From Chthoniobacter flavus (lineage in GTDB: Bacteria > Verrucomicrobiota > Verrucomicrobiia > Chthoniobacterales > Chthoniobacteraceae): a stretch of 58,812 nucleotides of DNA. The stretch's first letter is position 1; every line of letters begins with the position of its first letter. The notes beneath the pieces were generated by a model, which was given only the letters and a program-made list of their open reading frames with translations, ran no database searches and was not told the origin of the DNA. The stretch covers positions 1-58,812 of the forward strand of contig CAMAUX010000032.1 in NCBI GenBank assembly GCA_945861435.1. Direction: 5' to 3'. Positions 3,902-20,858 of the stretch are shown one piece after another. A program made the position numbers and the translations under genes.

Positions 3902-4327
3902 TGCGGGAAACTTGAATAAGAGAAGACGCTATTAAAGAAACGACCTCAAATCTTTAATTGCGGAAGGAGTGCCCCATCTGCTTGGGATGCACCTCCACCT
4001 TTGGGCTCAACGCCTCCACTTCCGGTTCCAGTTCCGGCATCGGGGGGGCCACTCCTTCTCATCTTCACTGAGGCCCAAAATTGATGACCGACTCCAAGCT
4101 CGCCCCTGAATCGGAAAGGCCTCCCATTGTCTGCCGGGGGGGATACCGGGGGTGTGGGCTGCAGGGTGACTAGGGTGGTCCGAGACGATCGCGTTGAGGG
4201 GGGAGCGGATCGGGTTTTTGTGGTCTTCAGTGGCGGTCGGAAAACGTGGCTTACACGGGTGGAAGTGTTCGCACTTTTGTTTGCAAAACGGGCTTTCCGG
4301 GAGGGTGTCGCGGTGTGTGGAAAAGCA
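3902..4327. other. No gene recognised
   Basis: About 425 nt upstream of the Fic gene and before the tRNA-derived repeat. It should hold the Fic promoter (minus strand). Short frames here have no recognisable content. Confidence 0.5.
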
Positions 4328-4352
4328 AAAACCCCTCTTGTGGAGGGGTTTG
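4328..4352 (-). terminator. Rho-independent terminator, probably the original one of the tRNA-Gly gene
   Basis: On the minus strand AAACCCCTCcacaaGAGGGGTTTTTG forms an 8-bp GC-rich stem followed by a T run. It lies a few nt past the displaced 3' end of the tRNA-Gly gene (4359-4390), where a tRNA terminator belongs. The integrative element has separated it from the intact tRNA by 16.5 kb. Confidence 0.75.
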
Positions 4353-4358
4353 TGGGAG

Positions 4359-4390
4359 AGTGGAGCGGGTGAAGGGAATCGAACCCTCGT
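4359..4390. repeat. Left attachment repeat (duplicated tRNA-Gly 3' end)
   Basis: 32 nt identical to 20827-20858, corresponding to the T-arm, acceptor stem and CCA of the tRNA-Gly gene. Identity ends sharply on the inner side (4391 onward reads ttcgattcac; the tRNA continues atgcagcttg), as expected for a tyrosine-recombinase crossover core. Confidence 0.9.
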
Positions 4391-4464
4391 TTCGATTCAC
4401 CCCTTCTGTAAGTACCTGCCAACAGTGTACATGGACATTCGGAGACACCCCTTTACAAGGTGGG

Positions 4465-4486
4465 ATTGTCACGTTATTTGTCACGT
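4465..4486. promoter_or_regulatory. Candidate integrase arm-type site, left end
   Basis: Contains GTCACGttatttGTCACGT, a directly repeated GTCACG with about helical-turn spacing. A close copy, GTCACGatttgtGTCACGT, lies at 20757-20775 near the other end in the same orientation. Short direct repeats inside both ends are typical of arm-type binding sites of lambda-like integrases. It also overlaps the likely promoter or leader of the integrase gene. Confidence 0.45.
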
Positions 4487-4487
4487 C

Positions 4488-5642
4488 ATGGCGCACCTGA
4501 TCCAACGGCCCGATTCCAACGTGTGGTGGGGAAGTTTCACGGGGGCGGATGGCCGCCGGGTGCGGCGCTCGTGCGGCACCTCCAACCGCACGGAGGCCAT
4601 GACCATCCTCCTCGCATGGGAACGGACCGCGAAGGAGGCGCGTCAGGGAATCCTCACCGAAGCACGGGTGCGCAGGGTGCTGAGCGATACTCTTGAGCAG
4701 GCAACAGGAGCGCCCCTGCCAGGGGGAAGTGTGCGCGAATACTTCCACGAATGGGTTGGAGCCAAGCAGAAGGAGAAGGCCACGCGTACCGGTATGAAAT
4801 ACGCGCAGGTCGCCGAACACTTTCTCGCCTCTCTCGGTTCACGGGCGAACCTGCCCCTCGAAGCCATCGTGACGGCGGATGTTAGCAAATGGCGCGATCT
4901 CCTCACCGCAGAAGGCCGCTCCGGAACCACCACCAATGACTCGGTGAAGATCGTCGCTTCTGTCTTTGAGAAGGCGAAACGCGGAGGGCGGATTCAGGTG
5001 AACCCTTGTCACGAACTGGGGAATCTCAGGGACGAAGAAAAAGGGGAACGGGACACATTTACCTCGGAGCAAGTGCGGGCTCTCTTGAACGCCACAAAGG
5101 GGACGGACTGGGAGGGGGCTACCCTCGTCGGATTTTTCACGGGCCTCCGACTGCGGGATGTCACCGGGCTGACCTGGGGCGCGGTGGACACAACAAACCA
5201 CGAACGCTGGTTTCTGAGAGTCATCCCCCTCAAGACTCTCAAAACAAACCGCGGAGTTGCCGTTCCCGTCCACCCAGAGCTCCGGAACTGGCTGGAATCC
5301 CGCCATCGGGGGATCGGCAAGGCCCCTGTATTTCCCTCGCTTGCAAACAAGAGTGGAGCCGGCAAAAGCGGGCTTTCGATGCAGTTCAAGCGGATCATGG
5401 AGAAGGCAGGGATTGTCGGAAAAGCGCTCAGGATCGGTAAGGGCGCCGGGCGGAGCACTTCCAGCCTGTCGTTCCACTCTCTGCGGCACTCCTTCACTTC
5501 GACGATGACCGCGGCCGGGGTGCCGGAAGAAGTCCGGATGCTCCTGACCGGCCATTCCACAAAGAAGGCCCACAAGGTGTACACGCACCATGAAGAGACG
5601 CAGGTCTGGGGAGCGATTTCCGCCCTGCCCGGAGTGTTGTAA
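4488..5642 (+). CDS. Tyrosine recombinase / integrase
   Basis: A 384-residue site-specific recombinase, beginning MAHLIQRPDSNVWWGSF. It has an N-terminal arm-binding region, a SAM-like core-binding domain (about residues 80-175) and a C-terminal catalytic domain. Catalytic residues are visible: Arg in FFTGLRLRDVTGL (about 220), Lys in LKTLKTNRG, H-x-x-R in LSFHSLRHSF (about 330), His in LLTGHSTKK and the nucleophile Tyr in HKVYTHHE (about 364). It should cleave at the 32-nt tRNA-Gly core and integrate or excise the element. An in-frame ATG at 4431 is an alternative start; I chose 4488 because MAHLIQ begins the conserved N-terminus. Confidence 0.93.
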   Translation: MAHLIQRPDSNVWWGSFTGADGRRVRRSCGTSNRTEAMTILLAWERTAKEARQGILTEARVRRVLSDTLEQATGAPLPGGSVREYFHEWVGAKQKEKATRTGMKYAQVAEHFLASLGSRANLPLEAIVTADVSKWRDLLTAEGRSGTTTNDSVKIVASVFEKAKRGGRIQVNPCHELGNLRDEEKGERDTFTSEQVRALLNATKGTDWEGATLVGFFTGLRLRDVTGLTWGAVDTTNHERWFLRVIPLKTLKTNRGVAVPVHPELRNWLESRHRGIGKAPVFPSLANKSGAGKSGLSMQFKRIMEKAGIVGKALRIGKGAGRSTSSLSFHSLRHSFTSTMTAAGVPEEVRMLLTGHSTKKAHKVYTHHEETQVWGAISALPGVL

Positions 5643-5761: not shown

Positions 5762-6850
5762 ATGAGATACCTTATGAGACATCAGCAGACTTCCCGTACC
5801 CCTTCGAGCTCTTCACCCATCACAACCGCTCCCACCGATGAAGCGTCGCCCTCCCTGCACCCCCAAGTCGGAGCGGCTGTCGAGGAGTCGGAGCGCCCCG
5901 GGGGCGCACTTCAGTTTTCGACCGCCCAACCGGAACTGCGCCGGGAAGAGTGGGACTTCACCCAGCTCGCAGCGAAGGACGTCCTCGACTGCTGGAAATG
6001 GGAGTTTCAGCGCGAAATGTACCGCACCGACGAAAATGTGCGCCTGGCGGTCGACGCACTTCGACAAGGCCACTCCCTCAACGAGGAAAGCCTCCATGCG
6101 GATCCCAGCAACGAGGAAACCGTATTCCCCTGGCTTGTCGATGGCCTGGCACATTACCCCCAGTCCGTCTGGCCCGAGACTCCCTATCAGTGCGTTGATC
6201 CGGAGTATCGCAGGCGGGTCTTTGGCGTGCTCAAGGAAGACGGTCCGCTGGAAGTCGTATCCACTGCCGGACGAGTGCAGGAACAGCCCTTGGAACAAGT
6301 CTGCCTTGAGAAGGTTGTGAAGGGTTCTGGGCGTCTTGGCAAATGGACCCACTGGCCGGCGGGTGCGGTATACGACTCCGGCATCGGCACGCTTGATCTC
6401 ATTGGTTCGGCCATCCATCGCGAACCCATTCAGATTCAGTGTACTGTGGTCGCGCTGTCCATAGACTGGAGCCGGACGGACACCGAGCTGAAGGCCTCTT
6501 TTGCCCAGTTTCTGCAGGCACACCGCGGTACCGATCGCGTCTTGCCCAACCCGGAGAGGCGGGGGCGTGAAAAGAGCGAATCCCTCATGCGTACGGAGTT
6601 GAAAGCGCTCGCCGCTTTACGATTGTGGCGGCATTGCGGCTCCATTGAAAAAGCCATGAACTTCACCCGGAAAAGCAGGCCTGCCCTTTCTTTTTATCAA
6701 AACGAACGCGATTGGAGTGCGGCAAAGCAACGGGTCGAGGAAGTCGTTGCTCATCTTTTTGATTACGAGGAAATCACTTCTAAGCAGATACTTGGAATCC
6801 AAAGGGAACCTGTGGCCAAAAGATTTTCTTTTGAGCACATGGGGAAATAG
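5762..6850 (+). CDS. Unknown protein of the integrative element
   Basis: A 362-residue protein that I do not recognise. The N-terminal 50 residues are Ser/Thr/Pro-rich and probably disordered. The core has Trp-rich motifs (REEWDFTQLAAKDVLDCWKW, then EFQREMYRTDENVRLAVD), and the C-terminal half is basic and helical (LKALAALRLWRHCGSIEKAM). A second ATG four codons downstream (5774) could be the start. It lies between the integrase and the HTH gene on the same strand, which suggests a role in element maintenance or gene control, but this is only context. Codon use and the lack of stops support a real gene. Confidence 0.6.
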   Translation: MRYLMRHQQTSRTPSSSSPITTAPTDEASPSLHPQVGAAVEESERPGGALQFSTAQPELRREEWDFTQLAAKDVLDCWKWEFQREMYRTDENVRLAVDALRQGHSLNEESLHADPSNEETVFPWLVDGLAHYPQSVWPETPYQCVDPEYRRRVFGVLKEDGPLEVVSTAGRVQEQPLEQVCLEKVVKGSGRLGKWTHWPAGAVYDSGIGTLDLIGSAIHREPIQIQCTVVALSIDWSRTDTELKASFAQFLQAHRGTDRVLPNPERRGREKSESLMRTELKALAALRLWRHCGSIEKAMNFTRKSRPALSFYQNERDWSAAKQRVEEVVAHLFDYEEITSKQILGIQREPVAKRFSFEHMGK

Positions 6851-6876: not shown

Positions 6877-7254
6877 ATGCGAAATATCCGTCACCACAAC
6901 ACCGGGGCTCCTCGCAAGAGCGAGCCGCAACACACCACCCAAACACCAACCCTCGCAGCACTCCCCACGGTTCACGCCGGTGCGGAGTTCTGCGGGCACA
7001 AGGAAGCCAGAGCCCTCTTCGGCATCAGCCGGTCGCACCTCTACCGGTTGCACGACGAGGGGCTGATCCGCTCCGTGTCGCTGCGCACCCGCGGCCGGTT
7101 GCGGGGGCGCCGCCTCTTCGAGGTGGCCAGCATCCGGGAGTTGCTCTACCGCAACCTCCCCCAAACAACCGCCGAGGAAAACAACACCCCCGGCGCAACC
7201 CACGCAGCCGCGCCGCACGCAGCCGCTGCAAACCCAAACCAAGCCGCGCGCTAA
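6877..7254 (+). CDS. Small HTH protein, excisionase / AlpA-like
   Basis: A 125-residue protein. Residues about 45-90 read AEFCGHKEARALFGISRSHL followed by YRLHDEGLIRSVSLRTRGR and LFEVASIRELL. This matches MerR-like winged HTH modules of the excisionase/AlpA (HTH_17) type, in which 'FGISRSHLYRL' is the recognition region. The ends are low-complexity Thr/Ala/Pro. A G-rich stretch (gggggcgg) just upstream of ATG 6877 can serve as ribosome binding site. In such elements these proteins bend DNA for excision or activate integrase or replication genes. It sits directly upstream of the primase and helicase genes, so it may also control replication. Confidence 0.7.
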   Translation: MRNIRHHNTGAPRKSEPQHTTQTPTLAALPTVHAGAEFCGHKEARALFGISRSHLYRLHDEGLIRSVSLRTRGRLRGRRLFEVASIRELLYRNLPQTTAEENNTPGATHAAAPHAAAANPNQAAR

Positions 7255-7359: not shown

Positions 7360-8247
7360 ATGAAGAGCACCGTTTATCTGGCTCCACCGCCCCATACCGG
7401 GATCCACACCGCGATCATGAGCCGGGCTGTCAAACTCTGGCACTCCGGCTTCACCCTCGAAAGCGCAACCAACGCCCTCCACTCCTGGCGAGGCGCCTAC
7501 TCGTTCCGCCGCCCCGTCACGGACCGCGAACTTCTCGACGCCATCTCCAAAGCCTACCGGCAGCCGCAGGCGTCTTTCGGCGCTCCCCGCCTCCCGCGAG
7601 GTGCGAGAGCCAAACAGCCATCGTGGCCTGCACCCGATCCGCAAAAACGCGCACGCCTCGTTCCAGACGGCTTCTGCCTTTACGACCTGTGGGAGCTGAG
7701 CCCGTGGAAGCCCACGGATTCCGCGCAATACACGCACTTCCTTTTGGAAAGGCTGTTCCCAGGGGATCCGCTGCTCTGCATCGGACACACGATGTCACAC
7801 TTTGACACGCGCCCCCTTTCGCAATGGTCCGAGCTTCACCGCGCACAGTTCCTCGTGCCCTCACCCATGCGGGCGCCCCGGGGAATGAAGCGCGACGGCT
7901 CGGGCGAATCCGCCCACACCCTCGACAACACCGGCCCACGTCGGTTTCTGGTTGTCGACTTCGACGATCACCACGGGCTCAACACCCATGCTGCCGCGGC
8001 GTGGTTCCTCGCAGAAAAGCTGCCCCTTGCGCTTGTGCTCCACTCGGGTGGCAAAGGCCTCCATGCGTGGTTTCTGGCCGAAGGCCGCTCCGAGCAGGAG
8101 TTGCGCGCCTTCTTTTCACTGGCAGTGGAATGCGGGGGCGATCCCGTGCTCTGGGGGCGCTCCCAGTTTGTGCGGATGCCCGACGGTCGGCGCGAGAACG
8201 GTGTGATCCAGCGCGCCTACTACTTCAACAAGGAGGTGCTCTCTTGA
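7360..8247 (+). CDS. AEP-superfamily primase-like protein
   Basis: A 295-residue protein with hallmarks of the archaeo-eukaryotic primase (AEP / prim-pol) fold: the metal-binding h-h-D-h-D motif in FLVVDFDDHHG (about residues 195-202), the S-G-G-x-G-x-H motif in LHSGGKGLHAWF (about 227-238) and a following basic/acidic segment, QFVRMPDGRRENG. The N-terminal 150 residues include a region often seen in replicon primases (MSRAVKLWHSGFTLESATNAL). It should synthesise primers for replication of the element. The stop overlaps the TTG start of the helicase gene by 3 nt, so the two are translationally coupled, and an iteron-like cluster follows the pair. Confidence 0.8.
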   Translation: MKSTVYLAPPPHTGIHTAIMSRAVKLWHSGFTLESATNALHSWRGAYSFRRPVTDRELLDAISKAYRQPQASFGAPRLPRGARAKQPSWPAPDPQKRARLVPDGFCLYDLWELSPWKPTDSAQYTHFLLERLFPGDPLLCIGHTMSHFDTRPLSQWSELHRAQFLVPSPMRAPRGMKRDGSGESAHTLDNTGPRRFLVVDFDDHHGLNTHAAAAWFLAEKLPLALVLHSGGKGLHAWFLAEGRSEQELRAFFSLAVECGGDPVLWGRSQFVRMPDGRRENGVIQRAYYFNKEVLS

Positions 8248-9227
8248 ACTTCGAAGGAGAACTCAGAGAGGAGGCTGTGTCCCAGCACGCCGAACGGCTG
8301 CAACTCCTGGAGGCGGGCTCCATCCCCTCCAACCGGCTCTCGGAGCTGGCATTGCCGCAGCGGGTTCGCGTCGTGGGTGATTGGCTCTGTGAGGCTGACC
8401 TTGTGTTTGTCTTTGCCCGGCGTGGGCTTGGCAAGACGTGGTTCAGCCTCGCGCTGGCCTGCGCTATTGCCTCCAAAAAACACATTGGCCCGTGGCCGGT
8501 GCATGTGAACCTGCCCGTGCTGTATGTAGACGGAGAGATGCCGTACGAGACCATCCAGCAACGCACCGCGGGGCTTGGCGCTTCCGACGCGCTTGCGGTG
8601 TTAAACCACGAGGCGCTGTTTCATAAAACGGGCGCGGTGCTGAACCTGACCGATACAGCCTGGCAGAACGCCGTGACCCGCCATTGCCTGAATAACGGCT
8701 TCAAAGTGTTGGTGCTCGACAACCTGTCCTGCCTGTTTTCGGGCGTGAAAGAGAACGACGCCGACGCCTGGGAAGCGGTGCTGCCCTGGTTGCTGGAACT
8801 CAGACGGCACCGCATCGCCGTGGTGATTGTCGCTCACTCGGGCCGGGACGGAAAAAACATGCGGGGCACGAGCCGGCGCGAAGACGCTGCCTTTTCGGTG
8901 ATCCGCCTCGACGACCCTCAGGAAACGGGTGAACCGCGCAACGGAGCCCGCTTCTTGATGCGCTTCACCAAGGATCGCAACAGCTCGGCGGAGCAGGCAG
9001 TGAGGGAATGGCTGTTCCAAACCCAGCCAGACGGTGGCGTGGAGATCTCCACCAAGCAGGCGGACGGAATCGAGATAGTCTTCCAATGGGTGCAGGACGG
9101 GCTGACCAGTTGCTCGGAGATCGCCGAAGAAATGGGCATCAGCAAGGGCACCGTCTCCAGAATGGCCAAAAAGCTGGTCGGAGTCGGGCGGTTGAAGGCG
9201 AACGGCAGACATTACGCCCTGCCGTAA
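8244..9227 (+). CDS. RecA-like / AAA_25-type replicative helicase (RepA-like)
   Basis: A 327-residue P-loop ATPase. I place the start at TTG 8244 (LNFEGELREE), which overlaps the primase stop; an AGGAGGT ribosome binding site lies at 8231-8237, an ideal distance. Walker A is FARRGLGKTWF (about residue 60), Walker B is KVLVLDNLSCLF (about 155), and IAVVIVAHSGRDGKN carries the following sensor His. The C-terminus is a winged HTH: SEIAEEMGISKGTVSRMAKK. RepA/AAA_25 proteins are hexameric helicases of plasmids and integrative elements. The HTH may bind the GGAAACG iterons that begin 11 nt after its stop. Confidence 0.87.
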   Translation: MNFEGELREEAVSQHAERLQLLEAGSIPSNRLSELALPQRVRVVGDWLCEADLVFVFARRGLGKTWFSLALACAIASKKHIGPWPVHVNLPVLYVDGEMPYETIQQRTAGLGASDALAVLNHEALFHKTGAVLNLTDTAWQNAVTRHCLNNGFKVLVLDNLSCLFSGVKENDADAWEAVLPWLLELRRHRIAVVIVAHSGRDGKNMRGTSRREDAAFSVIRLDDPQETGEPRNGARFLMRFTKDRNSSAEQAVREWLFQTQPDGGVEISTKQADGIEIVFQWVQDGLTSCSEIAEEMGISKGTVSRMAKKLVGVGRLKANGRHYALP

Positions 9228-9237
9228 CGCCGCGCTT

Positions 9238-9405
9238 CGTTTCCCGTTTCCGTGCCTAGGGCGGAAACGGGGAAACGAAGGGAAACGAAAGTGGAAACGG
9301 GCCGGAAACGAAACCGCTTTTACATTGTAAAAACGGAAACGGGCAGGAAACGAAAGTCTTCAAAACTGGAAACGAAACGCCCCCTTTTTTGAAGCGCTCG
9401 TTTCC
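9238..9405. promoter_or_regulatory. Iteron cluster, candidate replication origin
   Basis: Eight direct copies of GGAAACG start at 9263, 9271, 9281, 9293, 9304, 9335, 9346 and 9368. Three inverted copies (CGTTTCC) start at 9238, 9245 and 9399. Between the fifth and sixth direct copies lies the perfect AT-rich palindrome TTTTACAtTGTAAAA (9318-9332), a possible melting site. The cluster lies directly behind the primase-helicase pair and before the convergent defence operon. This is the layout of iteron-type origins in plasmids and in P4-like satellites. Confidence 0.75.
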
Positions 9406-9442: not shown

Positions 9443-10723
9443 TCAGCTGAAGCTCACCGCGCTCCCGTCGAAACACCTGCGGCAACGCCGACACACATCC
9501 GTGATGTCGTCCTTTCCGTTCAGCGGACACACCACCTCACGCCGGTACTTCCGGACATCACCTGTGGGCTTGTAGCTGTCGAAGAAAAGAACGGCGATCC
9601 CCTCCAGCCCTTCAGCGTCCGGCACCTCGTCCCTGTCGCATTGGTAGGAAAAGAAGTGGTTCTGGCTCCTCGGCTTTTGTTTCAGGAAATCCGCCCGGCG
9701 CCCGAGTGAATGCTTATCCAGGCTGAAATGGATGAACACATTCGGCGCCTGCTCGATTTGAGCCGCCCAGTCGGGCAACCGGGTCACCACCCAGATCGGA
9801 ATATCCGGCCGGATCTTACCCAGATGATTAATCGCCTCCACATTCTCCTTAAACAGGTCGCCGCCCCCGTTCCACCGGATGAATGTCAACCCGAGCCGGT
9901 CGTACTCCATCGCAACCCGCTCCGCAAAGGCCGCAGGGTTGGCCTGCATCGTTGCCATGACCTTCCACTGGTGACGGAGCGAGTTCGACCAACTCGGGGC
10001 GCCCACCGCGAAATAACATGTCTTCATGCAGACCGCCGTCGGCCGGCAGGTCGCTCCAATCGGCACATTCACGCTGTAGCCAGTCACCTTGTTGAACGAG
10101 AGGGCGTTCTCGTACGAACCAAGCAGCTCGGTTTGCCCAGACTCCATGATGCCGCGAGTCTTCTCCATCACGCGCCCCACACGGACACTCCGCGGAAGGG
10201 CCTTCCGGAGGGCGCCATGCCGCTCCTCCACGGCTTCGTGCGGCTGCCCGGTCTGGCCGGACGCAATGGTTCGAACCTTTGCTGCTACCGCCTCAACCAC
10301 GGTACGCGCATCCGCAGGCGTCCACCGTCTCGGGGAGGAACGCACATGAATGGTCCAGCCCGTCCCCGGTTTCATGAAACTGAGCTTCTCGGCCAGGGTA
10401 CGGATCGGGATCGCATGGGATAGGGGCAACTCCTCCACGATCTTCACAGGCAACCGCACGGGGAAAATCCCGTCGCTCCAGATCTTCGCCGTGTCCCAGT
10501 AGGCGGGGCCGGTCACCTCCATGACCCCGACAAAGGTAGACACCTTGCTGACATAACACAGGATCTTGTCGCCCGGCTTCAGTCGGCCGGCCATCAGCTT
10601 CTTCTTCTCGGTGAACCCCATCACCCGCCCGCCGTGCGCCTTGAACTCCCGCCACGATTCAATGGTGAACAGTCCGAGGTAATGCTCGGGAGGCAGGGAG
10701 GACTGTGCGTTCGGTGCGCTCAC
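9443..10723 (-). CDS. EVE-domain / GP88-like fusion protein
   Basis: A 426-residue protein from GTG 10723, 6 nt after the hsdR stop, with AAGGG in the hsdR tail as ribosome binding site. Residues about 13-125 resemble an EVE (PUA-like) domain: HYLGLFTIESWREF, KPGDKILCYVSKVSTFVGVM, TGPAYWD and FPVRLPVKIVEELP. EVE domains read modified bases in DNA or RNA. Residues about 165-426 resemble the phage GP88 domain: a Cys cluster, CRPTAVCMKTCYF (about 230), FIRWNGGGDLF, and a final CPLNGKDDITDVCRRCRRC with four more Cys. The Cys sets suggest a metal cluster and a radical-SAM-like fold (inference). As last gene of the Type I operon it is a likely accessory of restriction or base modification. Confidence 0.7.
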   Translation of the reverse strand: MSAPNAQSSLPPEHYLGLFTIESWREFKAHGGRVMGFTEKKKLMAGRLKPGDKILCYVSKVSTFVGVMEVTGPAYWDTAKIWSDGIFPVRLPVKIVEELPLSHAIPIRTLAEKLSFMKPGTGWTIHVRSSPRRWTPADARTVVEAVAAKVRTIASGQTGQPHEAVEERHGALRKALPRSVRVGRVMEKTRGIMESGQTELLGSYENALSFNKVTGYSVNVPIGATCRPTAVCMKTCYFAVGAPSWSNSLRHQWKVMATMQANPAAFAERVAMEYDRLGLTFIRWNGGGDLFKENVEAINHLGKIRPDIPIWVVTRLPDWAAQIEQAPNVFIHFSLDKHSLGRRADFLKQKPRSQNHFFSYQCDRDEVPDAEGLEGIAVLFFDSYKPTGDVRKYRREVVCPLNGKDDITDVCRRCRRCFDGSAVSFS

Positions 10724-10729
10724 TTCTGC

Positions 10730-13705
10730 TTATCCCTTCGCCGCAGGTGATTTTGAGCGTCCCGCCAGATACCACTCAAAAAGCCGGTTAAAGAACTCCT
10801 TCGACACCTCCGCGTCGTCGCTCACCTTTTTGTAAAACGCGAAGTTCTCGTTGATGAGGTCTTCGAACGCGTTTTCCGCAACCTGCCGGAAGGTCGCCTC
10901 CACGGCGTGCCGCGCGCCGTTCTTGAGCTGTTGCCGGAGCGCCTCGTCTTCGCCGATCTTCTTTTCGAGCTGCTTGATGACCATCACCTCATCATCCGTG
11001 AACGAGGTGTTGAACCGCGTATTGAGGTCTTCGATGATCTTCGACAGCGCTTCGTGGTCCTCTTCGTTCAATGCCGCGCCCCCGCCGTACTTGAGCGGGT
11101 CCTCCCTCACCTCGCCCCGTTGCAGCGCTATGTCCTTTTTCTCGTTCTTGCGCACCGCGAGCTTTTCCATGTCGACCATGCCGAGCACTTCCAGCGGCAG
11201 CGCGCCCGTCTTTCCCGGCAGTTTCGGCAACAAAAACCGCAGAAACACGAAGAGCTTCTCCAGCCCCGGGTCATGGATGGAAACAAGCCCGGACAGGAAG
11301 GCGTAGAGCTTCACAAAATCCCGCGCCTTGGATTTGTAGTCCACCTGCGCCTCCTCGGGCTCCGCCAGCCAGCGCTTGGCCACCGGATCCGCCGCCGCAT
11401 GGAGCTTTTCCACACTCCGCTTCGACGCAAACCAAAGCCCGGCAAACGCCTCCACCTCCGACTCCTCGTGGACGCCGAACTTTTCGAGGTCGGTGCGGAT
11501 GTTGTACAGCTCGTTGGGATCCGTCCCCTTGGAGAGCGTGACGCGGTCGTAGAACGGCTGGAAACTTTTCTCGATGTCTTCGGCGCTGTTTTCGAAATCC
11601 AGGACAAAGGTCTCCTCCTTGCCCACCATGGTGCGGTTCAGGCGCGAGAGCGTTTGCACGCAGGTGACCCCGCTCAGCTTTTTGTCCACATACATCGCCA
11701 CCAGCTTCGGCTGGTCGAACCCCGTCTGAAACTTGCTCGCCACAATCAGGATCCGGTATTCATCGCCCTCAAACCGGTCGCCCGTCGCCGCCTCGGGGAA
11801 GCCGTTCATCCTGGCTTCGGTATATTCCTGCCCGTCCTTGGAATCCTTCACCACATCCGTGAACGCCACCAGTGCCTTGAACGGGTTCCCGAGGGATTGC
11901 AGATGCGCGTCCATGGCCAGCCGGTAGCGCACGGCGTGCAACCGCGACGAAGTGACGATCATCGCCTTGGCTTTCCCACCCAGTTTGCCGCTGACCGTGC
12001 TCTGAAAATGCTCCACCATGAGTGCGACTTTCTTGGCGATCGTCCGTTCGTTGCTGCTCACAAACCGCCGCAGCAGTGACTTGGCCTTGGTGCCGTCGAA
12101 GGTGGGATCGTCCTCCACCTTTTTCAGCAACGCCCAGTACTGGTCGTAGGTCGTGTAGTTGCGGAGCACATCCAAAATGAAGCCCTCCTCGATCGCCTGC
12201 CGCATCGTGTACAGGCTGAAGGGGCGGAACGATCCGTCCGCCTGCCTTGTCCCAAACTGCTGGAGCGTTTCCGGCTTGGGCGTCGCGGTGAAGGCGAAAT
12301 AGCTCACATTCCGTTGCGGCCCGCGCGTCTTCAACTCCTCCAAAATCCGGTCCTCGGTGGTCTTTTCCTCCTCGTCCTTCTGGTCGTCCTCGGAGGAATA
12401 CGACAATACCTTCTGCACCGCCTTGGCGCTCTCGCCCGCCTGGGAGGAATGCGCTTCATCCACGATCACCGCAAAGCGTTCGCCCGGCAGTTCGCCCATG
12501 CTGTCCATGATCACCCCAAACTTTTGCAGCGTGGTGACGATGATGCGTTTGCCATCCTCCAGCGCCGATTTAAGGTCCTTGGAGGTCATTCCGTCCTCGG
12601 AGGCGATGTTGACCAGCATGCCCTTGGTCTCGATCACCTGGGTCAGCGTGCGCTGCAACTGGCGGTCGATCACACGCCGGTCGGAGATGACGACCACCGA
12701 ACTGAACACCGGCTTGCCTTCCGCTGTGTGCAGGGTGGCGAGACTGTTCGCCAGCCACGCGATGCAGTTGGTCTTGCCGCTGCCGGCGCTGTGCTGGTTG
12801 AGGTAACGCCTGCCCGCTCCGTGCTTCTGGGCGTCGGCCCCCAGTTCGCGCACGCAGGCCAGTTGGTGAAACCGCGGGAAGATCTGCCGCTGTTTGTCGG
12901 TCTTCCGGCCCTTGTCATCCAGCACATCCACCACGCGGATGAAGCGTTGGATGAGGTCGAGGATGCGCGGCTTTTGCCAGATTTCCTGCCACAGATAACC
13001 TGTCGCGTACCCGGTCTGACATGGCGGATTGCCCGCGCCCCCGTCCGCGCCCCGGTTGAAGGGGAGGAACTGGGTTTTGGCTCCGGCCAGTTCGGTGGCC
13101 ACATAGACAAGATCGTTGTCCACGGCGAAGTGGGCAAGGCAGCGCCGGAACCGGAACAGCGGTTCCTTGGGGTCGCGCGTCTCCTTGTACTGCTTCATCG
13201 CGTGGCCGACATTCTGGCCCGAGATCTGGTTTTTCAGTTCGCTGGTGAAGATGGGCAGCCCGTTCAGGAAGAGAACCAGGTCGAGCGACTTTTCGTCCGT
13301 CTCGGAAAACTTCAGCTGCCGCTGCACATGCAGAAGGTTCTCCTGATACAGCCGGCGGCTTTCCTCGGCCACCGGGTTGGTGGGTTCGAAGTAGCAAAGG
13401 TCGAAATGGCCGCCGCCGATGATGTCGAAGCCGCGGCGCAGGGCGTGCAGCGTGCCTTCCTTGTCCACGACCTCCTTGATGCGCTTGAGCAGGTTGCGGC
13501 GGGCCTCGTCCAGGTCGCCGATCAACTTGCAGTAGCCTTCCCATTTCTTGGGCTGGGTGGCGCGGAGGAAGGAGAGGACCGTGTCGGGGCGCAGGCACAG
13601 GGCTTTGTCGTAATCCTCCTGTTGCGCGGGAAAGAAGCCATGCCGGGTGAGCAGGACCTCTTCAATATGGGCTTCAAACGCGGCTTCGGAGGTGACTTTG
13701 GCCAT
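10730..13705 (-). CDS. hsdR: Type I restriction enzyme, R (restriction/translocase) subunit
   Basis: A 991-residue HsdR. The N-terminal PD-(D/E)XK nuclease is visible as SLDLVLFLNGLPIFTSELKN (Asp and E-x-K), about residues 145-165. The SF2 translocase follows: Walker A in NQHSAGSGKTNCIAW (about 302), DEAH box in FAVIVDEAHSSQAGES (about 413), YFAFTATPKPETL (motif III) and KFQTGFDQPKLVAMYVD (motif V). The C-terminal helical region would dock on HsdM/HsdS. It pumps unmodified DNA past the bound complex and cuts at a distance. Start ATG 13705 lies 3 nt after the hsdS stop, so it is co-translated with hsdS. Confidence 0.96.
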   Translation of the reverse strand: MAKVTSEAAFEAHIEEVLLTRHGFFPAQQEDYDKALCLRPDTVLSFLRATQPKKWEGYCKLIGDLDEARRNLLKRIKEVVDKEGTLHALRRGFDIIGGGHFDLCYFEPTNPVAEESRRLYQENLLHVQRQLKFSETDEKSLDLVLFLNGLPIFTSELKNQISGQNVGHAMKQYKETRDPKEPLFRFRRCLAHFAVDNDLVYVATELAGAKTQFLPFNRGADGGAGNPPCQTGYATGYLWQEIWQKPRILDLIQRFIRVVDVLDDKGRKTDKQRQIFPRFHQLACVRELGADAQKHGAGRRYLNQHSAGSGKTNCIAWLANSLATLHTAEGKPVFSSVVVISDRRVIDRQLQRTLTQVIETKGMLVNIASEDGMTSKDLKSALEDGKRIIVTTLQKFGVIMDSMGELPGERFAVIVDEAHSSQAGESAKAVQKVLSYSSEDDQKDEEEKTTEDRILEELKTRGPQRNVSYFAFTATPKPETLQQFGTRQADGSFRPFSLYTMRQAIEEGFILDVLRNYTTYDQYWALLKKVEDDPTFDGTKAKSLLRRFVSSNERTIAKKVALMVEHFQSTVSGKLGGKAKAMIVTSSRLHAVRYRLAMDAHLQSLGNPFKALVAFTDVVKDSKDGQEYTEARMNGFPEAATGDRFEGDEYRILIVASKFQTGFDQPKLVAMYVDKKLSGVTCVQTLSRLNRTMVGKEETFVLDFENSAEDIEKSFQPFYDRVTLSKGTDPNELYNIRTDLEKFGVHEESEVEAFAGLWFASKRSVEKLHAAADPVAKRWLAEPEEAQVDYKSKARDFVKLYAFLSGLVSIHDPGLEKLFVFLRFLLPKLPGKTGALPLEVLGMVDMEKLAVRKNEKKDIALQRGEVREDPLKYGGGAALNEEDHEALSKIIEDLNTRFNTSFTDDEVMVIKQLEKKIGEDEALRQQLKNGARHAVEATFRQVAENAFEDLINENFAFYKKVSDDAEVSKEFFNRLFEWYLAGRSKSPAAKG

Positions 13706-13708
13706 GGG

Positions 13709-15031
13709 TCAGTTTGCGGGGTGTTGGCGCACATCAATCTGGCCCGTGACGGCGGCGGAGATGAGGGCGGTGCGGCGTTCGTGCAGCAGGTCGATGGCGC
13801 GCTCGGCCTCGGCTGTCAGTTCGTCGAATCGGGCGAGTTCGGTGTCTAGGTAAGCGACGATGTCTTTCTGTTCATGGATGTCTGGTAACGGTAGAAGTGT
13901 TTGGGCCAAATAATTATGCTCGATGCTTTCGACCGTTGCGCCCTGCTTGGCCCAATCAAATAAAAGTTGTTCATTGTTGCCTTGCACCCAGCGGAGGAAA
14001 AACTGAGGCACACATTTCTTTGTTTCGAATGACAGCGCCTTCATGTCTTGGTTCAGCGCGACGGCGGTTTCATTAATAGCAATAGGAATTGTGTGTTTTA
14101 GGATTCCCGATCTAACAACGATCAACACTCTTCCGGGCTTTAATAAGTTCGACGCGCTGTTTCGGAGTCCCTCTTCTGAAATTGATTCTTCTGCACCATC
14201 GATGCGATCTGCCTTCATGTCCTTGGGAGATACCCAAGGGATGTTCCCGTTCCAATAAGCGGGATTATCTCGGCTTGGCGTTCCTCCGCCCGAAAAAGTT
14301 GCTACGCTTTTTAGCCGTTTCACCTCCCAATGCGCCGGGACATCGCCGAGCCAAGGGATGCCGGAAGGCTTGGTGGGAGCGTTTGGGTGGAGGCCTTTGG
14401 TGACGGCGTGGGAGATGACGGCCTGGCGTTTTTCTTTGAGCAGTGCGATGAGCCGCCGCTGCTCCGCCACCAGCCCATCGATCTTCGCCGTCTCCCGGTC
14501 CAGAAACTCCGCGATGGCGGTTTGCTCGGCGAGAGGGGGGAAGGCGCCCCAGAAGCGGTAAATATCCGCAGGGCTTGCTCGTTGATGGCTGTTCGTGACA
14601 GACGTAACAGTGGATTCGAGCTTTTGTCGAAATCCCTCCGTCCTTACCAGATAGTGGAGGTATTGGATCTCACAATTAAATGGTTCGAGTGCTACGAATT
14701 CGGTAGAACACAAAGTCAACGCTTGTTGAGAATCTGCAATGCAAATAGTTCCTTTACGGGGATTTAGTTTTGAAACAAGGACGACCCTCCTTTTTATTAC
14801 TTGTTTGCCGCTCGCAATTTCACTCCCGTTTTCCAATTGACCCGTGCCGGTTTCTTGAACGACTGGAATCGAATAGTGAAAGACCTCCAATCCCTTAAAC
14901 TCGCTTGGGTCAAGTTGAGCGCGGGAATAGGACAGACAACTGTCTGACCGTTTCACCTCCCAGTGCTCTGGCACGTCACCGAGCCATTCCACGCCGCTGG
15001 CCTTGTATTTGGGATAACGCGGGAAGCTCAT
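13709..15031 (-). CDS. hsdS: Type I restriction enzyme, S (specificity) subunit
   Basis: A 440-residue HsdS with two target-recognition domains separated by conserved helices. Each half opens with the typical motif: [20 protein letters not shown] near the N-terminus and [19 protein letters not shown] near the middle. The helical spacers include [19 protein letters not shown] and a matching C-terminal [20 protein letters not shown]. It sets the bipartite sequence methylated by HsdM and cut by HsdR. I start at ATG 15031, in an ATGA overlap with the abi stop; a longer upstream frame reads through abi and is not the protein. Confidence 0.95.
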
Positions 15032-15930
15032 GCCTTTTTTTCTTTCCAGAGTGGTTGATGCCGCCAGTTCCCGGGGAACCCCATGGCTGTTACCGGAACC
15101 GTGTATTCTTCGAGGAGCCCCAGAAGCCGTTTTCGCCACTGGTGGCGGGGGGCAATCTGATCCATACAATGCAAAAGAATGAGGAGGGAGTTATAGAGTT
15201 TGCGGGAGCCCTGTGCAAATTGCGGCGCGAGGATCGCCGGTTTGTGGGGGTGCTTCGGGGTCACGGAAAACTCACGGTTCCAGAGCCGACTGTGGTGGGC
15301 ACACACATTCCGAACCACTGTCAGGTGGTGGAGCCATGATTGGAGAACGCCTTGATCGAGGCCATAAACGGATGCAATGGCGGACCGTGTAGGCATCGGC
15401 TTTAGGTTGGCATACCAGCGCGATAACAAACCCAGCGACATCACCTCGCATACCGCCCAGACAGGGGGAAGGGCTTCGGAGTATGTGTTCGTCAGATGCT
15501 GGATGAAGGTTTCATCGGACCGCCCAACCTCTTTCTCCAGCGACTCCCGGTTGGAACTCCATTTGTCCGGGTGGAAAGCGAGGGAGGCATCCATGTGCGC
15601 ATGGGGGCCGTGCCGGTGTGCGAGTTGATACGCCCACTGGGTCCGAACGGAGACCTCGATGCGTTCCAGTGCGTCGAGCACAAGCAATCGCAGTTCCCGG
15701 TCGAACTTGTAGAGATTTAGAACCTCCCGAAAATCGGTTCCCGGTCGAAACTGATGGGTGCTGTGATCGGATTCAAAAGGCAACCAGTAGGCCCCAAGCC
15801 GGTAGTAGTTCAGGTGCTGGAGGTAAAACTCGGCCTCGGCTTGATCCTCCACGAGCATCCCCCGGGAGCGCAGCAATTCAACCTGCTGCCCAAATGTGAT
15901 GGGAGGCTTCGGGTAGGGGCGCCTGCTCAC
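15028..15930 (-). CDS. Abi family (Abi_2 / AbiD-AbiF type) HEPN protein
   Basis: A 300-residue abortive-infection-type protein. Typical Abi_2 features: [18 protein letters not shown] at the start, [47 protein letters not shown], and the HEPN RNase motif R-x4-6-H in [16 protein letters not shown] (about residue 206). Such proteins are thought to cleave RNA when phage infect. I start at GTG 15930 because GGAGGG lies at ribosome-binding distance; upstream residues of the open frame are not conserved. It ends in an ATGA overlap with hsdS, so it is a built-in member of the restriction operon, placed between hsdM and hsdS. Confidence 0.88.
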
Positions 15931-16226
15931 AGGCTGATTCCCTCCATGAGTTTTTCCCGCGTGATGGGTAAAAACAAGTGACCCGCCGGTTTGAGGAACG
16001 CTTTCGCGTCTAGCCTTGGCGGGTTCTGTTGGGCACAAAGTGTTCCAAAAAACAGCGGGGCGCAAGGGGGAAGCTGTAACTTTTTCCAAACGACTGGCAA
16101 CCGGTCTGCTGGCGAAAATACGGAAGTTCGACCGCAACCCGTAGCCCGGAGCTCGGAGGCGAATTGTCCAGAGATTCCAGATGGTTTACCTCTGAAAAAA
16201 GCGTGCATCGGTGGACTGACACTCAT
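15927..16226 (-). CDS. Possible 99-residue coupling ORF between hsdM and abi
   Basis: The frame starts [17 protein letters not shown] at an ATG in an ATGA overlap with the hsdM stop (16226-16223) and ends MEGISL at a TGA that overlaps the abi GTG start (GTGA, 15930-15927). It thus bridges the 292-nt gap in a chain of overlapping genes. I do not recognise the product. Composition is against a strong protein-coding call: third-position GC is lower than in neighbours, and there is no domain pattern. It may be a leader-type frame that keeps ribosomes moving into abi, or chance. Confidence 0.35.
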
Positions 16227-18283
16227 TGGGTGAGCCCTCCAATCATGCTGAGGATGCGGTCGGTAACGGTTTTCAGGTCGGCGTCTATCTCGCTCAGGGG
16301 GCGCGGCGGTTGAAACACATAAAAATGCCGGTTGAACGGGATCTCGTAACCGACCTTGCCCACCTGGTTGTCCTTGCCATCGCGGCAGTCCGAGTCGATC
16401 CACGCATCGGGCACATGCGGGGTCACCTCGCGCGCGAAGTAGGCGTCGATGGATTCCTTGAGCGGCACATTCTCGGTGTCGTTGAGGTCGGTGTCCGGCT
16501 CGGGACGGCCGCTGCTGTCGCGGCAGATCTCTGCGGAGTCATCGCGTTCGCCGATGCCGGCGAGGAGGGCTTTGAGCACGGGCGCCTTGAGCTTGAGACC
16601 GGCCTTCTTCAGGGCGGCCTCCAGCGCGGCGGTGAACCGCTCGCGGTTGTTGTAGGTCTGGCCGGTGAGGGCGTGCAGGGCGGCGCGGATTTCCTCCTGC
16701 TGGGCGCGGCCGTCCTGTTCCTCGCGCTTTTGTTCGGCGGGGTCTTTCTTCTTGCTGAGGGCGAGGTTTTTGAACCCGGACTGGGTGTCGAGCCGCGCGA
16801 GCGACTCGGCGTTGACCTCGAATCGCAGTTTGAGCGGACGCAGAACCTTGATCTCGCGGTAGCCGAAATCGGTGGTGTCGAACACCTTCACATGCGGGCC
16901 GGGCTTGCGTTCGCGGACCAGCTGGAGGATGGCCTGCCGGTGGGCGTCGGTGATTTCGCGGCGTTTGCTGCCGAGGCTCTTGGACATGCCGGACCAGAAC
17001 TCCTCGCCCGAGGCATCCACGAGGAGGACCTTGCCCTTGTGTGCGGCGGGCTTGCGGTTGCTCAGCAGCCAGATGTAGGTGCCGATGCCGGTGTTGTAGA
17101 AGATCTGCTGCGGCAGGGCGACGATGGCTTCCAGCCAGTCGTTCTCCAGAATCCAGCGGCGGATCTCCGATTCCCCCGAACCGGCCCCGCCCGTGAAGAG
17201 GGGCGAGCCGTTCATGATGATCCCGATGTAGCTCTGGGACTCCTTGGGATCGTTCATTCGGGCGATGAAATGCTGGAGAAAGAGCATCTGCCCATCCGAC
17301 TTGCGCGGGAGGCCGGCGCCGAAACGGCCGGCGGGACCGCGCGCAGCCTCGGCGCTGACGGCGTCGAAGTCCTTGCTCCACTCATAGCCGTAGGGCGGAT
17401 TGACGAACTGGAGGTCAAAGCGCATCTGTGCCAGCTGGTCGTCGGAGAGGGTGCTGCCGAGTTTGATGTTTTCGGCGTCCTTGCCTTCAGGCTCCAGGAT
17501 GAGCATGTCGGCGCGGGCGATGGCCCAGGTGAAGGGGTTCAGCTCCTGGCCGAAGAGGTGGACTCTGGCCTGGGGATTCACCCTGAGGATGTGTTCCTTG
17601 CTGATGGAGAGGATGCCTCCGGTGCCGCAGCAGCAGTCGTTGACGGTGCGGGCCACGCCTTCGCCGGTGCCCAGCTCGGTATCCAGCATGAGGACGAGGT
17701 CCACCATGAGCCGGATGGCGTCGCGCGGGGTGAAGTGTTCGCCGGGATTTTCGTTGAGGGCTTCGTTGAACTTGCGGAGGAGATGTTCGAAGACATAGCC
17801 CATCTCGTGGTTGGAGAGGGCGGAGGGGCGGAGGTCCACCTTGCTCTTCTCGTTGAACCGCTCCATGAGGAGGTAGAGCAGGTTGACCCGGTCCAGGTCG
17901 CGGATGGAGTCGTCGAAATTGAAGGCTGCGAAGATCTCGCGGACATTGGGGGAGAACCCCATCACATACTGGCGCAGGTTGAGGGCCAGATTGGCGTCGT
18001 CGTGGAGGAGGCTTTCGTAGGTGAACTTGGAGGTGTTGTAGAAAGCGTATCCTGCCGCGCGGCAGAGCTGGCCGTGGCGGTTTTCGAGGCCCTTTTCCTT
18101 GAGCGTGCGTTCGGTTTCGAGAACCTTCGCCTTGGTGTGCTCCAACGCGTAGTCGAGCCGGCGCAGCACGGTGAAGGGCAGTACGATTTTCTGGAACTCG
18201 CTCTTTTTGAACGCGCCGTTGAGCAGGTCGGCGATCGACCAGAGGAAGCTGACGACGGAGTTGAATTTGGAGGTGTCGGACAT
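16223..18283 (-). CDS. hsdM: Type I restriction enzyme, M (N6-adenine methyltransferase) subunit
   Basis: A 686-residue HsdM. The N-terminal helical domain (FLWSIADLLNGAFKKSEFQK, VLPFTVLRRLDYALE) contacts HsdS. The SAM-binding motif I is NDCCCGTGGIL (about residue 213); catalytic motif IV is the N6-adenine type, LQFVNPPYGYEW (about 293). ENPGEHFTPRDAIRLMVDLV is the usual segment before motif I. It methylates adenine in the target set by HsdS and protects host DNA. It is longer than the common 500-residue HsdM and carries a C-terminal extension with a Lys/Glu-rich helix (KKKDPAEQKREEQDGRAQQE). It is the first gene of the hsdM-abi-hsdS-hsdR run. Confidence 0.96.
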   Translation of the reverse strand: MSDTSKFNSVVSFLWSIADLLNGAFKKSEFQKIVLPFTVLRRLDYALEHTKAKVLETERTLKEKGLENRHGQLCRAAGYAFYNTSKFTYESLLHDDANLALNLRQYVMGFSPNVREIFAAFNFDDSIRDLDRVNLLYLLMERFNEKSKVDLRPSALSNHEMGYVFEHLLRKFNEALNENPGEHFTPRDAIRLMVDLVLMLDTELGTGEGVARTVNDCCCGTGGILSISKEHILRVNPQARVHLFGQELNPFTWAIARADMLILEPEGKDAENIKLGSTLSDDQLAQMRFDLQFVNPPYGYEWSKDFDAVSAEAARGPAGRFGAGLPRKSDGQMLFLQHFIARMNDPKESQSYIGIIMNGSPLFTGGAGSGESEIRRWILENDWLEAIVALPQQIFYNTGIGTYIWLLSNRKPAAHKGKVLLVDASGEEFWSGMSKSLGSKRREITDAHRQAILQLVRERKPGPHVKVFDTTDFGYREIKVLRPLKLRFEVNAESLARLDTQSGFKNLALSKKKDPAEQKREEQDGRAQQEEIRAALHALTGQTYNNRERFTAALEAALKKAGLKLKAPVLKALLAGIGERDDSAEICRDSSGRPEPDTDLNDTENVPLKESIDAYFAREVTPHVPDAWIDSDCRDGKDNQVGKVGYEIPFNRHFYVFQPPRPLSEIDADLKTVTDRILSMIGGLTQ

Positions 18284-18490
18284 GCGAGGGGTGGAAAAGG
18301 GGGCGGGAATCCGCGTGCCGCTAAGTTAACACAAGCGGGCACCTCCGCACGGGGTAACGGCCTGCGCTTTGCGCTGGGGCGGCGTCAGGTTGCCGGATGG
18401 TAGCGGATGGTGTGAATGCGTTTGGATCCGGCGGGGGCGCAAACCGCAGGTGTGGTGCGTGCGCGTCCGGTTGGAAAGCCGGGGCGGCGT

Positions 18491-19543
18491 TCATATGCCG
18501 GGTTCCTCGTGGACGAGCATCCAGACGCGTTTGAGGGGCAGCTCTGCTTGGATTTCAGCGGGCAGGCGTTCGTAGTTGCGGTAGATTGCCTCCACCAGAT
18601 CGCGGCTCTCCCAGAGGCGGACGGTAAAATGCCCCTGGCGGGATTCCGCGACGACGGTCTTTTTGAAACCGCCCCAGGCGACCAGCAGTCCCTGTTTGGC
18701 ATTAAAACTCTGCATCGAGCCGAGCAGGGTGCGGTACACCTGCACATCGACGGGGCCGGATTCCGACTTCACCTGCACGCACAACCGCGGTTCATCGAGG
18801 CCGAGCGAGCCGCGCCCCGCGAGGATGTCCACCCCGCCGTCGGCGCCGGGAGGGGAGAGTTTGGTCACCCAGCCGTCGGCGGTGAGAACGGCATCCACCA
18901 GACGGGACAGGCCGTGGCCGTTGAAGCGGGACTGAATATGGGCGACGATCTGGTCATGGGCCGCCTGCGCCAGGTCGATGGGGGTTTCTTCAGCATCCTC
19001 CGCAGCGGGCTGTTCCTTGTTGGAAGAGGCTCCCGGGACAGGAACGAAGCCGGGGTCTGGCTTGCCCTCCAGAACGGCGAGGACGCGTTTTTCAGCATGG
19101 TTGCGCGTGATGCTGCACACGGTCAGGAAGGCGCCGAAGGAGTACAACAGGTCCTGCGAGAAGATCGAGCGTGGCACATCGGGACGCCCCCATTCGACGG
19201 GGCGCGTGTGCCGGTCTTGACCGTTGACCTTGGCATAGCGGTAAGGGCCGGTCACGCGTCCGAGGGCTACCTGTGAAGTGAGTTTGCGGGGGAGCACAAC
19301 GATGTCGCCCTGCTGCATCCCAAAGGCAAAAGTCCAGAGCTGCCGCGCGTGGTTGAGGCGCGCCCGGGGTTTCAAATCCAGCGGAACAGCCTTGGCCAGA
19401 TCGTGGACATCCTCAAAGCGTCTGGCATCCGCCAGCGAGGGAATCTCACGGAACCCGATGACCGCCATGTTGTGGTCGAGAGCGAAAGGCTCGTCCTCAC
19501 CATTGCCGCACGCGCGGGCGATTAAAACCTTGGGCCGGCTCAT
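18491..19543 (-). CDS. Mrr-like restriction endonuclease with PUA-like N-terminal domain
   Basis: A 350-residue protein. The C-terminal half is a Mrr_cat/PD-(D/E)XK nuclease: GLSRLVDAVLTADGWVTKLS, the acidic site in GADGGVDILAG (about 232), and the Q-x-K site in RLCVQVKSESGPVDV (about 256), then LLVAWGGFKKT. The N-terminal half, with GDIVVLPRKLTSQVALGRV and TGPYRY, looks like a PUA/EVE-like sensor domain. This layout is that of Type IV enzymes that cut modified foreign DNA. It lies 207 nt upstream of hsdM on the same strand and may share its transcript. It could give the element an attack on modified phage DNA next to the Type I attack on unmodified DNA. Confidence 0.82.
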   Translation of the reverse strand: MSRPKVLIARACGNGEDEPFALDHNMAVIGFREIPSLADARRFEDVHDLAKAVPLDLKPRARLNHARQLWTFAFGMQQGDIVVLPRKLTSQVALGRVTGPYRYAKVNGQDRHTRPVEWGRPDVPRSIFSQDLLYSFGAFLTVCSITRNHAEKRVLAVLEGKPDPGFVPVPGASSNKEQPAAEDAEETPIDLAQAAHDQIVAHIQSRFNGHGLSRLVDAVLTADGWVTKLSPPGADGGVDILAGRGSLGLDEPRLCVQVKSESGPVDVQVYRTLLGSMQSFNAKQGLLVAWGGFKKTVVAESRQGHFTVRLWESRDLVEAIYRNYERLPAEIQAELPLKRVWMLVHEEPGI

Positions 19544-20775: not shown

Positions 20776-20826
20776 TTACCCTGTTTTGGGGTCCCCTAAT
20801 CTGCGTAACTCTCTGTCAGAGAGGAA

Positions 20827-20858
20827 AGTGGAGCGGGTGAAGGGAATCGAACCCTCGT
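20827..20858. repeat. Right attachment repeat within tRNA-Gly
   Basis: Identical to 4359-4390. It makes up the 3' third of the intact tRNA-Gly gene, so integration rebuilt a functional tRNA at this end and left the old 3' end on the far side of the element. Confidence 0.9.

Follow-up and report, generated by a model that had tools for sequence, protein, structure and literature searches.

The window, that is, the whole stretch of 58,812 bases that was analysed, carries an integrated island bounded by 36-nt direct repeats, which were found by a repeat search of the window and are 97% identical. The features of the island are collected in Table 1. In 8 of the 10 relatives examined (11 fetched, 1.5 kb each), the tRNA-Gly(CCC) gene lies close to the gene that flanks it in the window, which indicates that the tRNA is an old neighbour and the island a newcomer. 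The mechanical start of the integrase ORF falls to the left of the left repeat, and the real start, guessed from the translation, is probably at about 4.49 kb. The 362-aa ORF had no match in Pfam, PHROGs, NCBIfam or PADLOC at the thresholds used. The HTH_17 match of the small protein encoded behind it is below the family cut-off, and PHROG 66 stands for both excisionase and transcriptional regulator.

Table 1. Features of the island and of the origin candidate in the window.
Feature	Position	Strand	Evidence or remark
Tyrosine integrase ORF	4194..5642	+	Pfam Phage_integrase 9.7e-16, PHROG integrase 2.2e-41
Left attachment repeat, 36 nt	4355..4390	.	97% identity to right copy
362-aa ORF	5762..6850	+	Between integrase and HTH gene
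Small HTH_17 protein, excisionase/AlpA-like	6877..7254	+	PHROG 66 5.1e-5; HTH_17 3.7e-5
Primase candidate, AEP / RepB-primase-like	7360..8247	+	AEP-TOTE 0.0084, Prim-Pol 0.012, RepB_primase 0.013
RSF1010-RepA-like helicase, C-terminal winged helix-turn-helix (about residues 276-327)	8244..9227	+	Pfam AAA_25 4.5e-24
Dyad core, two inverted box pairs around CCTAGG (CTAG 9256-9259)	9233..9282	.	Sequence
Origin candidate, 11 GGAAACG boxes, two sets	9238..9405	.	Sequence scan and relatives
AT-rich palindrome TTTTACATTGTAAAA, TTTTACA-T-TGTAAAA, between box sets	9318..9332	.	Sequence
Cargo: GP88+EVE, type I R-M (HsdR, HsdS, HsdM), Abi_2/AbiD, Mrr-like nuclease (PADLOC PDC-S02)	9443..19543	-	
112-aa ORF, small-terminase candidate	20308..20646	+	PHROG 11043 (function unknown) 4.6e-8
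Right attachment repeat, overlaps 3′ part of tRNA-Gly(CCC)	20823..20858	.	Repeat search
tRNA-Gly(CCC)	20829..20902	-	tRNA at right attachment repeat

Among the cargo proteins, the one encoded at 9443-10723 has an N-terminal EVE and a C-terminal GP88 domain and adjoins both the origin candidate and the type I R-M set; it is possibly a modified-DNA sensor. Neither Pfam nor NCBIfam matched the 112-aa ORF near the right border. In Sulfitobacter phage pCB2047-C, however, a homologue of it directly precedes the terminase gene, and this place suggests that the PHROG 11043 family may act as a small terminase. No phage structural genes were found among the 12 main island ORFs with Pfam, 7 of which were also searched against PHROGs, and the same 12 ORFs gave no Pfam match to relaxase or conjugation genes. 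Since none of these 12 ORFs matched a relaxase, a plasmid or an ICE was rejected. The helicase matched a single plasmid record (51% coverage, 33% identity) and three phage records (61-74% coverage, 27% identity).

In the helicase, Pfam AAA_25 spans residues 30-203, and several winged-helix families (MarR/HTH) match residues 278-313 weakly, below the Pfam cut-offs. An AlphaFold2 model built from 20 aligned relatives (mean pLDDT 90.8) shows at its end the helix-helix-helix-strand-strand order that winged helices have. The fold search placed RSF1010 RepA first (1nlf, 1olo; TM-score 0.56 over the query), with RadA, RecA and KaiC close behind, and the profile search gave 1g8y as the top match (1.7e-10), the C-terminal part being matched by MarR-type regulators. 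Taken together, the Pfam, model, fold and profile matches identify the protein as a RecA-fold helicase of the RepA type to which a DNA-binding domain has been added. The winged HTH that a first-pass annotation of this DNA had recognised at the helicase end is thus borne out by the weak family matches, the model and the profile matches. For the primase candidate, every Pfam match lies under the curated cut-off, and the single match of its profile to the PDB (0.0043, to a chain named CAP REPEAT) was not used. Its relatives at 39-42% are found in loci L016, L112, L113 and L111.

The box cluster and its dyad

Behind the helicase gene, 11 exact copies of GGAAACG, 8 direct and 3 inverted, are packed into 168 nt. 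The minus-strand copies are at 9238, 9245 and 9399, and the plus-strand copies at 9263, 9271, 9281, 9293, 9304, 9335, 9346 and 9368, so that seven boxes lie in 9238-9310 and four in 9335-9405. The first-pass annotation had counted the same number and orientation, and all these copies were located; it had also put the start of the cluster just past the helicase stop, from which the first copy is indeed separated by 10 nt. The perfect AT-rich palindrome that it saw between copies five and six, counting direct copies, has perfect arms with one base between them.

The whole window contains 25 copies of GGAAACG against 11.1 ± 3.2 in 100 dinucleotide shuffles, and at the shuffle rate about 0.03 copies would be expected in 168 nt. 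None of 575 other 430-nt stretches of the window reached 11 copies of any 7-mer, and one reached 10. In the 5.35 Mb assembly, a pattern of three GGAAACG with gaps of up to 30 had 7 matches, six of which overlap at the cluster and one of which is on contig C4; the control, the pattern read backwards, had 3. The shuffle counts, together with the motif-free cluster searches across loci described below, rule out a chance cluster. A transcription terminator was rejected by reading, as no T-run stands behind the dyad and the boxes run on for 120 nt past it. An integron attC site was likewise rejected, the boxes being at odds with the attC consensus.

Boxes one to four together make up an imperfect palindrome that is symmetrical at 36 of 50 positions around its CCTAGG centre. 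Farther on, the AT content rises to 0.55-0.57 at +80..+160, compared with 0.38 for the window, and the AT-rich palindrome located there between the box sets is a candidate melting site. None of the 31 other loci checked shares this palindrome; three of these (L015, L016, L044) have a different AT-rich palindrome, and in one further locus such a palindrome is formed by the boxes themselves. Some bacterial primases start at CTA. For 27 loci with a recognisable word, the box words being picked by the analyst, we found in 26 an inverted box pair that brackets a spacer of 9-30 nt. The spacer contains CTA or TAG in 21 of these 26 loci, compared with 10.5 in shuffles (P = 0.0002; P = 0.001 when any 3-mer was allowed to win). 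The preservation of the dyad centre while the boxes change suggests that the centre may have a job apart from the boxes, such as melting or priming. The number of dyads varies: locus L112 has three, with a repeated flank, and L015 has two.

The dyad by itself is unspecific, since genomes G190 and G558 have similar four-box palindromes away from any such element. A loose three-box dyad pattern was found in 13 of 384 genomes of the host class, 6 with a strong helicase match and 7 with none or a weak one. With a spacing of 2 nt, the four-box palindrome was present in 2 of the 384, G190 and G558, both of which carry the helicase and in both of which it is found outside the island as well; together with the difference of words within one genus, described below, this speaks against a host-encoded site. 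In G190, a small gene that is DUF4375-like by eye is surrounded by four orphan copies, whose word is that of the G190 island, the flanking genes being sulfatase-like and aminoacyl-tRNA synthetase-like by eye, and one array mixes GTTTCC and GTTGCC boxes. In G558 the orphan copies lie between small genes, and an array in G478 is orthologous by eye. The orphans of both G558 and G478 are of the GTTTCC type, while the clusters of the resident helicases have other words or none, which disfavours copying in trans in these genomes.

Four-box palindromes with CTAG-like centres were also seen outside islands in L158 (8090-8972), L179 (4900-5700), L157 (6967-8900) and L159 (7877-8896), where chromosomal genes border them and they stand in pairs or in arrays; L179 has palindromes of the GTTTCC type interleaved with those of the GTTGCC type, and L158 has two pairs with inverted centres. 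One could imagine that the four-box palindrome with its CTA centre is a portable origin, the orphans being hyperparasitic cassettes that the self-loading helicase of the island would copy in trans and that recombination between dyads would move. G190 is the clearest case for this, the GTTGCC boxes in one of its arrays count against it, and we consider the idea very improbable.

Cluster position and box word in relatives

Among the named relatives of the helicase, four records are verrucomicrobial, with 47-50% identity, and one is alphaproteobacterial, with 33%. In a survey of 384 genomes of the host class, the helicase family was found at E ≤ 1e-40 in 17 genomes, with 19 matches counting that of the window. 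With corrected stops, at least four GGAAAC lie within 300 nt behind the helicase in 13 of the 19 matches, a changed word stands there in three (L106, L111, L113), and three (L110, L114, L118) have no box cluster within this distance. The first-pass annotation had named loss of the motif from relatives keeping the genes as an argument against its own proposal; the 13 matches show the opposite.

The position of the cluster was also examined without prior choice of a motif. When the strongest 7-mer cluster was determined in each of 79 dereplicated loci from genomes and IMG/VR, it was at -20 to +330 of the helicase stop in 33 loci, compared with 3.4 expected from length. Some stops in this search were miscalled, as alignments overran them, and they were corrected in a test of 80 loci with a stricter rule, namely at least 5 copies and no equal 430-nt window elsewhere in the locus. 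This rule was passed by 33 of the 80 loci, with 5-13 copies per locus; over half of the loci thus fail it, some having varied copies and some none. Left out were L045 and L098, which have no stop, and 17 near-identical loci; the 79-locus search was run without L063 and L060 (199 and 0 nt behind the stop), and the 80-locus test without L060 (30 nt). Near relatives lacking a cluster are L110, L114, L118, L042 and L040. Three loci (L101, L016, L105) have 6-7 GGAAAC copies that are too varied for the strict 7-mer rule, and L014, from another collection, has a seven-copy cluster with the same dyad displaced 400 nt further on. L164 has two copies of the origin cluster (2978-3142 and 4441-4606) at a distance of 1.46 kb, and these flank a gene for 395 aa that is pentapeptide-like by eye.

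The genes beyond the cluster largely differ among relatives, and the cluster stays behind the helicase. A packaging scan of 10 proteins from relatives gave five TerS matches (L101 and L013, and at 1e-5 to 1e-6 L115, L105 and L047), all encoded behind the origin cluster, and two TerL matches (L047, L038), which argues that the module also serves phage-like contigs. The gene before the helicase varies as well. The GGAAAC word is accompanied by relatives of the window-type primase in L016, L015 and L112, and by TOPRIM or CHC2 primases in L102, L104, L105, L107 and L108 (L104 and L108 just below the cut-off); upstream ORFs taken as primases had no Pfam match in L013, L103, L109, L117, L115, L016 and L111. 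As the primase class varies while the word stays, the primase is an unlikely reader of the boxes. In L107, L108, L043 and L047 the helicase shares one ORF with some 300 additional N-terminal residues, which match a CHC2 zinc finger in L107 and L108, are BT4734-like in L043 and have no match in L047. These fused helicases, with the same cluster downstream, indicate that the primase part was fused or swapped more than once.

The place of the cluster is kept, and its word changes between clades. We found TGCAACG in L038, TGCAAGA in L043 and L087, CTAAACG in L046, GTAAACG in L044 and in fewer copies in L041, TGAACGA in L111, GCAATGAA in L113, TGGGACA in L048, L049, L052, L059 and L064, AGTTGCG in L050 and L061, TGGACCA in L057, TGAATCA in L072, L075 and L076, and further words elsewhere. 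The words differ even among L111, L112 and L113, all of which belong to one genus, g211.

The recognition helix of the winged helix follows the word in part. KGT or KGQ goes with GGAAAC, even in L047 with 32% identity, and KGY or AGY goes with xTAAACG in L041, L044 and L046. As counterexamples to a residue code, SAGT goes with GGAAACGA in L104 but with GCAATGAA in L113, and no cluster accompanies AGY in L040 or KGR/KGS in L110 and L114. Partial Mantel tests over 40 loci gave a correlation of the word with the winged helix, given the ATPase domain, of 0.31 (p = 0.0005), and with the ATPase domain, given the winged helix, of 0.17 (p = 0.0025). Column-wise covariation was higher in the winged helix than in the ATPase part (p = 0.003), and the 15 top covarying columns, 4 of which lie in the winged helix, showed no enrichment there (p = 0.23). 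Boxes accompany 30 of 67 helicases with a winged helix, 37 failing the strict cluster rule, and 3 of 13 without one (Fisher p = 0.22). Shared ancestry may explain much of this, since the word tracks the ATPase domain too and the top columns are not enriched. The covariation is thus supportive but not decisive and only moderately specific, and the winged helix of the helicase is the likely reader of the boxes, as judged from these comparisons.

Proposed origin function and its alternatives

Taken together, the data make it quite probable that 9233-9405 is the replication origin of a 16.5-kb satellite-like island integrated at tRNA-Gly and driven by its own RepA-type helicase. The first-pass annotation had proposed an origin recognised by the helicase or the HTH protein of the element. 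In favour of the helicase are the kept position, the word switching, the dyad and the primase swaps, while the covariation that points to the winged helix as reader is only moderately specific and the presence of this domain is not significantly associated with the boxes. From what was obtained by computation, namely the boxes with their place, conservation and word switching, the helicase fold class and the att repeats, we infer a possible course of replication. The island would excise first, and the helicase would then bind the GGAAACG boxes via the winged helix at its C-terminus. Two helicase rings that face apart may be loaded by the inverted pairs of the dyad, melting may be aided by the later boxes and by the AT-rich stretch between the sets, and the primase candidate may prime at or near the melted dyad, whereupon a polymerase of the host or of a putative helper would extend the primers. 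By binding and loading itself, the helicase would act as its own initiator and so do alone what RSF1010 divides between RepA and RepC.

Alternatively, the boxes could be an operator array through which the HTH_17 protein or the helicase winged helix controls transcription, with no part in replication. Winged helices and HTH_17 proteins are often regulators, and the families matching the helicase are largely MarR-type regulators, but the helicase gene (plus strand) and the gene at 9443-10723 (minus strand) both end at the cluster, so that neither has its promoter there. Moreover, the cluster stays behind the helicase in relatives whose following genes largely differ, and it comprises 5-13 copies, often with a dyad, in loci that pass the strict rule; we therefore regard an operator array as unlikely. 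The small-terminase genes behind the cluster in five relatives, and the resemblance of four-box palindromes to recombination sites, would fit a site at which the island is packaged (pac/cos) or recombined. The att repeats, however, sit elsewhere, at tRNA-Gly, and in the scans made the cluster also stands behind the helicase where the next genes are not terminase-like, which leaves such a function extremely improbable.

It is quite unlikely that the origin is real but read by the primase or by a host protein instead of the helicase winged helix. The non-significant presence test and the covariation of the word with the ATPase domain would agree with another reader, and in SCCmec the primase-polymerase likewise prefers origin repeats, according to the excerpted part of PMC7581432. 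Against the primase, its class differs under one and the same word, and a shared host protein would leave unexplained the different words of L111, L112 and L113 within one genus.

If the reading as an origin recognised by the island helicase is correct, one protein would join an RSF1010-type helicase with the origin recognition of a separate initiator, and several bacterial groups would have such proteins in their islands and phage contigs. The recognition word would have been re-specified many times at a fixed place, thus offering a natural series for the choice of DNA words by winged helices and for the evolution of initiator specificity. The pairing of protein and DNA is directly testable, because related islands and viruses often keep the spot of the cluster and change its letters. 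A helicase stop followed by a box cluster may also serve as a computational handle for origins and satellite-like islands in phyla for which the literature searches brought up none.

Comparison with known replicons and satellites

RSF1010 (IncQ) provides, in RepA, the nearest solved relative of the island helicase by both profile and fold. As far as the excerpts of PMC8965321 and PMC4538821 go, it further resembles the island in its iterons and in the possible AEP-type primase gene that precedes the island helicase. According to the excerpted PMC8965321, a separate protein, RepC, melts the RSF1010 origin at which the helicase is then loaded, and RepA, like GP46 of phage F13, is reported to move in the 5′-to-3′ direction. 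In the island, by contrast, the 12 ORFs gave no Pfam match to RepC, the winged helix is fused to the helicase, the iterons lie behind the helicase gene, and the whole is an integrated island rather than a plasmid. The dyad core is a candidate for a priming site of the ssiA/ssiB kind.

Satellite P4 is replicated by its own helicase protein and has a second cluster away from the origin. Both properties have a likeness here, the first in the presumed role of the island helicase and the second in the one relative with two box clusters, L164. The difference is that the island has two separate genes, a RepA-like helicase and one cluster, while alpha, named along with its origin in the excerpts of PMC6092414 and PMC7145576, is a single primase-helicase protein (PMC8965321, in excerpt).

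Closer in layout are the staphylococcal elements as described in the excerpted text of PMC7581432. For both SaPI Rep and SCCmec Cch2, the origin is directly downstream of the helicase gene, and the iterons are read by the C-terminal domain. Cch2 thus binds direct repeats just past its own gene, with inverted repeats alongside them, and Rep apparently binds as two hexamers. Unlike the island helicase, Cch2 is of the Primase_Cterm/D5 type, moves 3′-to-5′ and has a 5-nt iteron, AAGTG, and an A-family polymerase with a partner serves as the SCCmec primase (same excerpts). PICI origins consist of two iteron sets that flank an AT-rich region immediately 3′ of rep (PMC6092414, in the part consulted).

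Just as in SaPI/PICI, so far as these excerpts describe them, the primase, the initiator helicase and the origin of the island follow each other in one direction, the origin directly 3′ of the helicase gene. The window has two box sets flanking an AT-rich stretch, with a weak primase assignment and a predicted origin, and the C-terminal domain of the helicase is expected to read the iterons. The island also has an integrase, a tRNA att site, accessory genes and a possible TerS. Of the features of PICIs, we found the integrase, the specific tRNA-Gly attachment site and the lack of own phage structural genes in the ORFs scanned. A phage satellite would agree with the size and the tRNA att site, with the integrase and the excisionase-like HTH, with the primase candidate, the helicase and the predicted origin, and also with the defence cargo and the ORF whose phage homologue neighbours a terminase gene. 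The differences are the verrucomicrobial host relatives, the dyad with its CTA centre, the fact that no helper phage is known for the island, and the helicase class, which is AAA_25/RepA-like with a RecA fold versus the DUF927 or D5/Primase_Cterm types. The last difference holds for the SaPI and SCCmec helicases named in the excerpts of PMC7581432 and does not extend to the Pri-Rep proteins of Gram-negative PICIs. We do not claim PICI membership, because the initiator class is unlike the SaPI types named there and the links to packaging and a helper are candidates.

Among the papers listed by literature searches on verrucomicrobial and planctomycete groups, we found no described origin of this kind. 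The first-pass annotation had likewise taken such an origin to be undescribed; this seems to hold for the helicase class and the host group, while the layout itself is published for SaPI/PICI and SCCmec, as the excerpts of PMC6092414 and PMC7581432 show. As far as sequence comparison can tell, that annotation was probably mostly right about the function, the layout appears less new, and the phenomenon seems wider than it claimed. In other words, the locus is best read as a putative PICI-type, self-recognised origin with a different class of helicase, and what would be new relative to the published PICI layout is this class and the host group.
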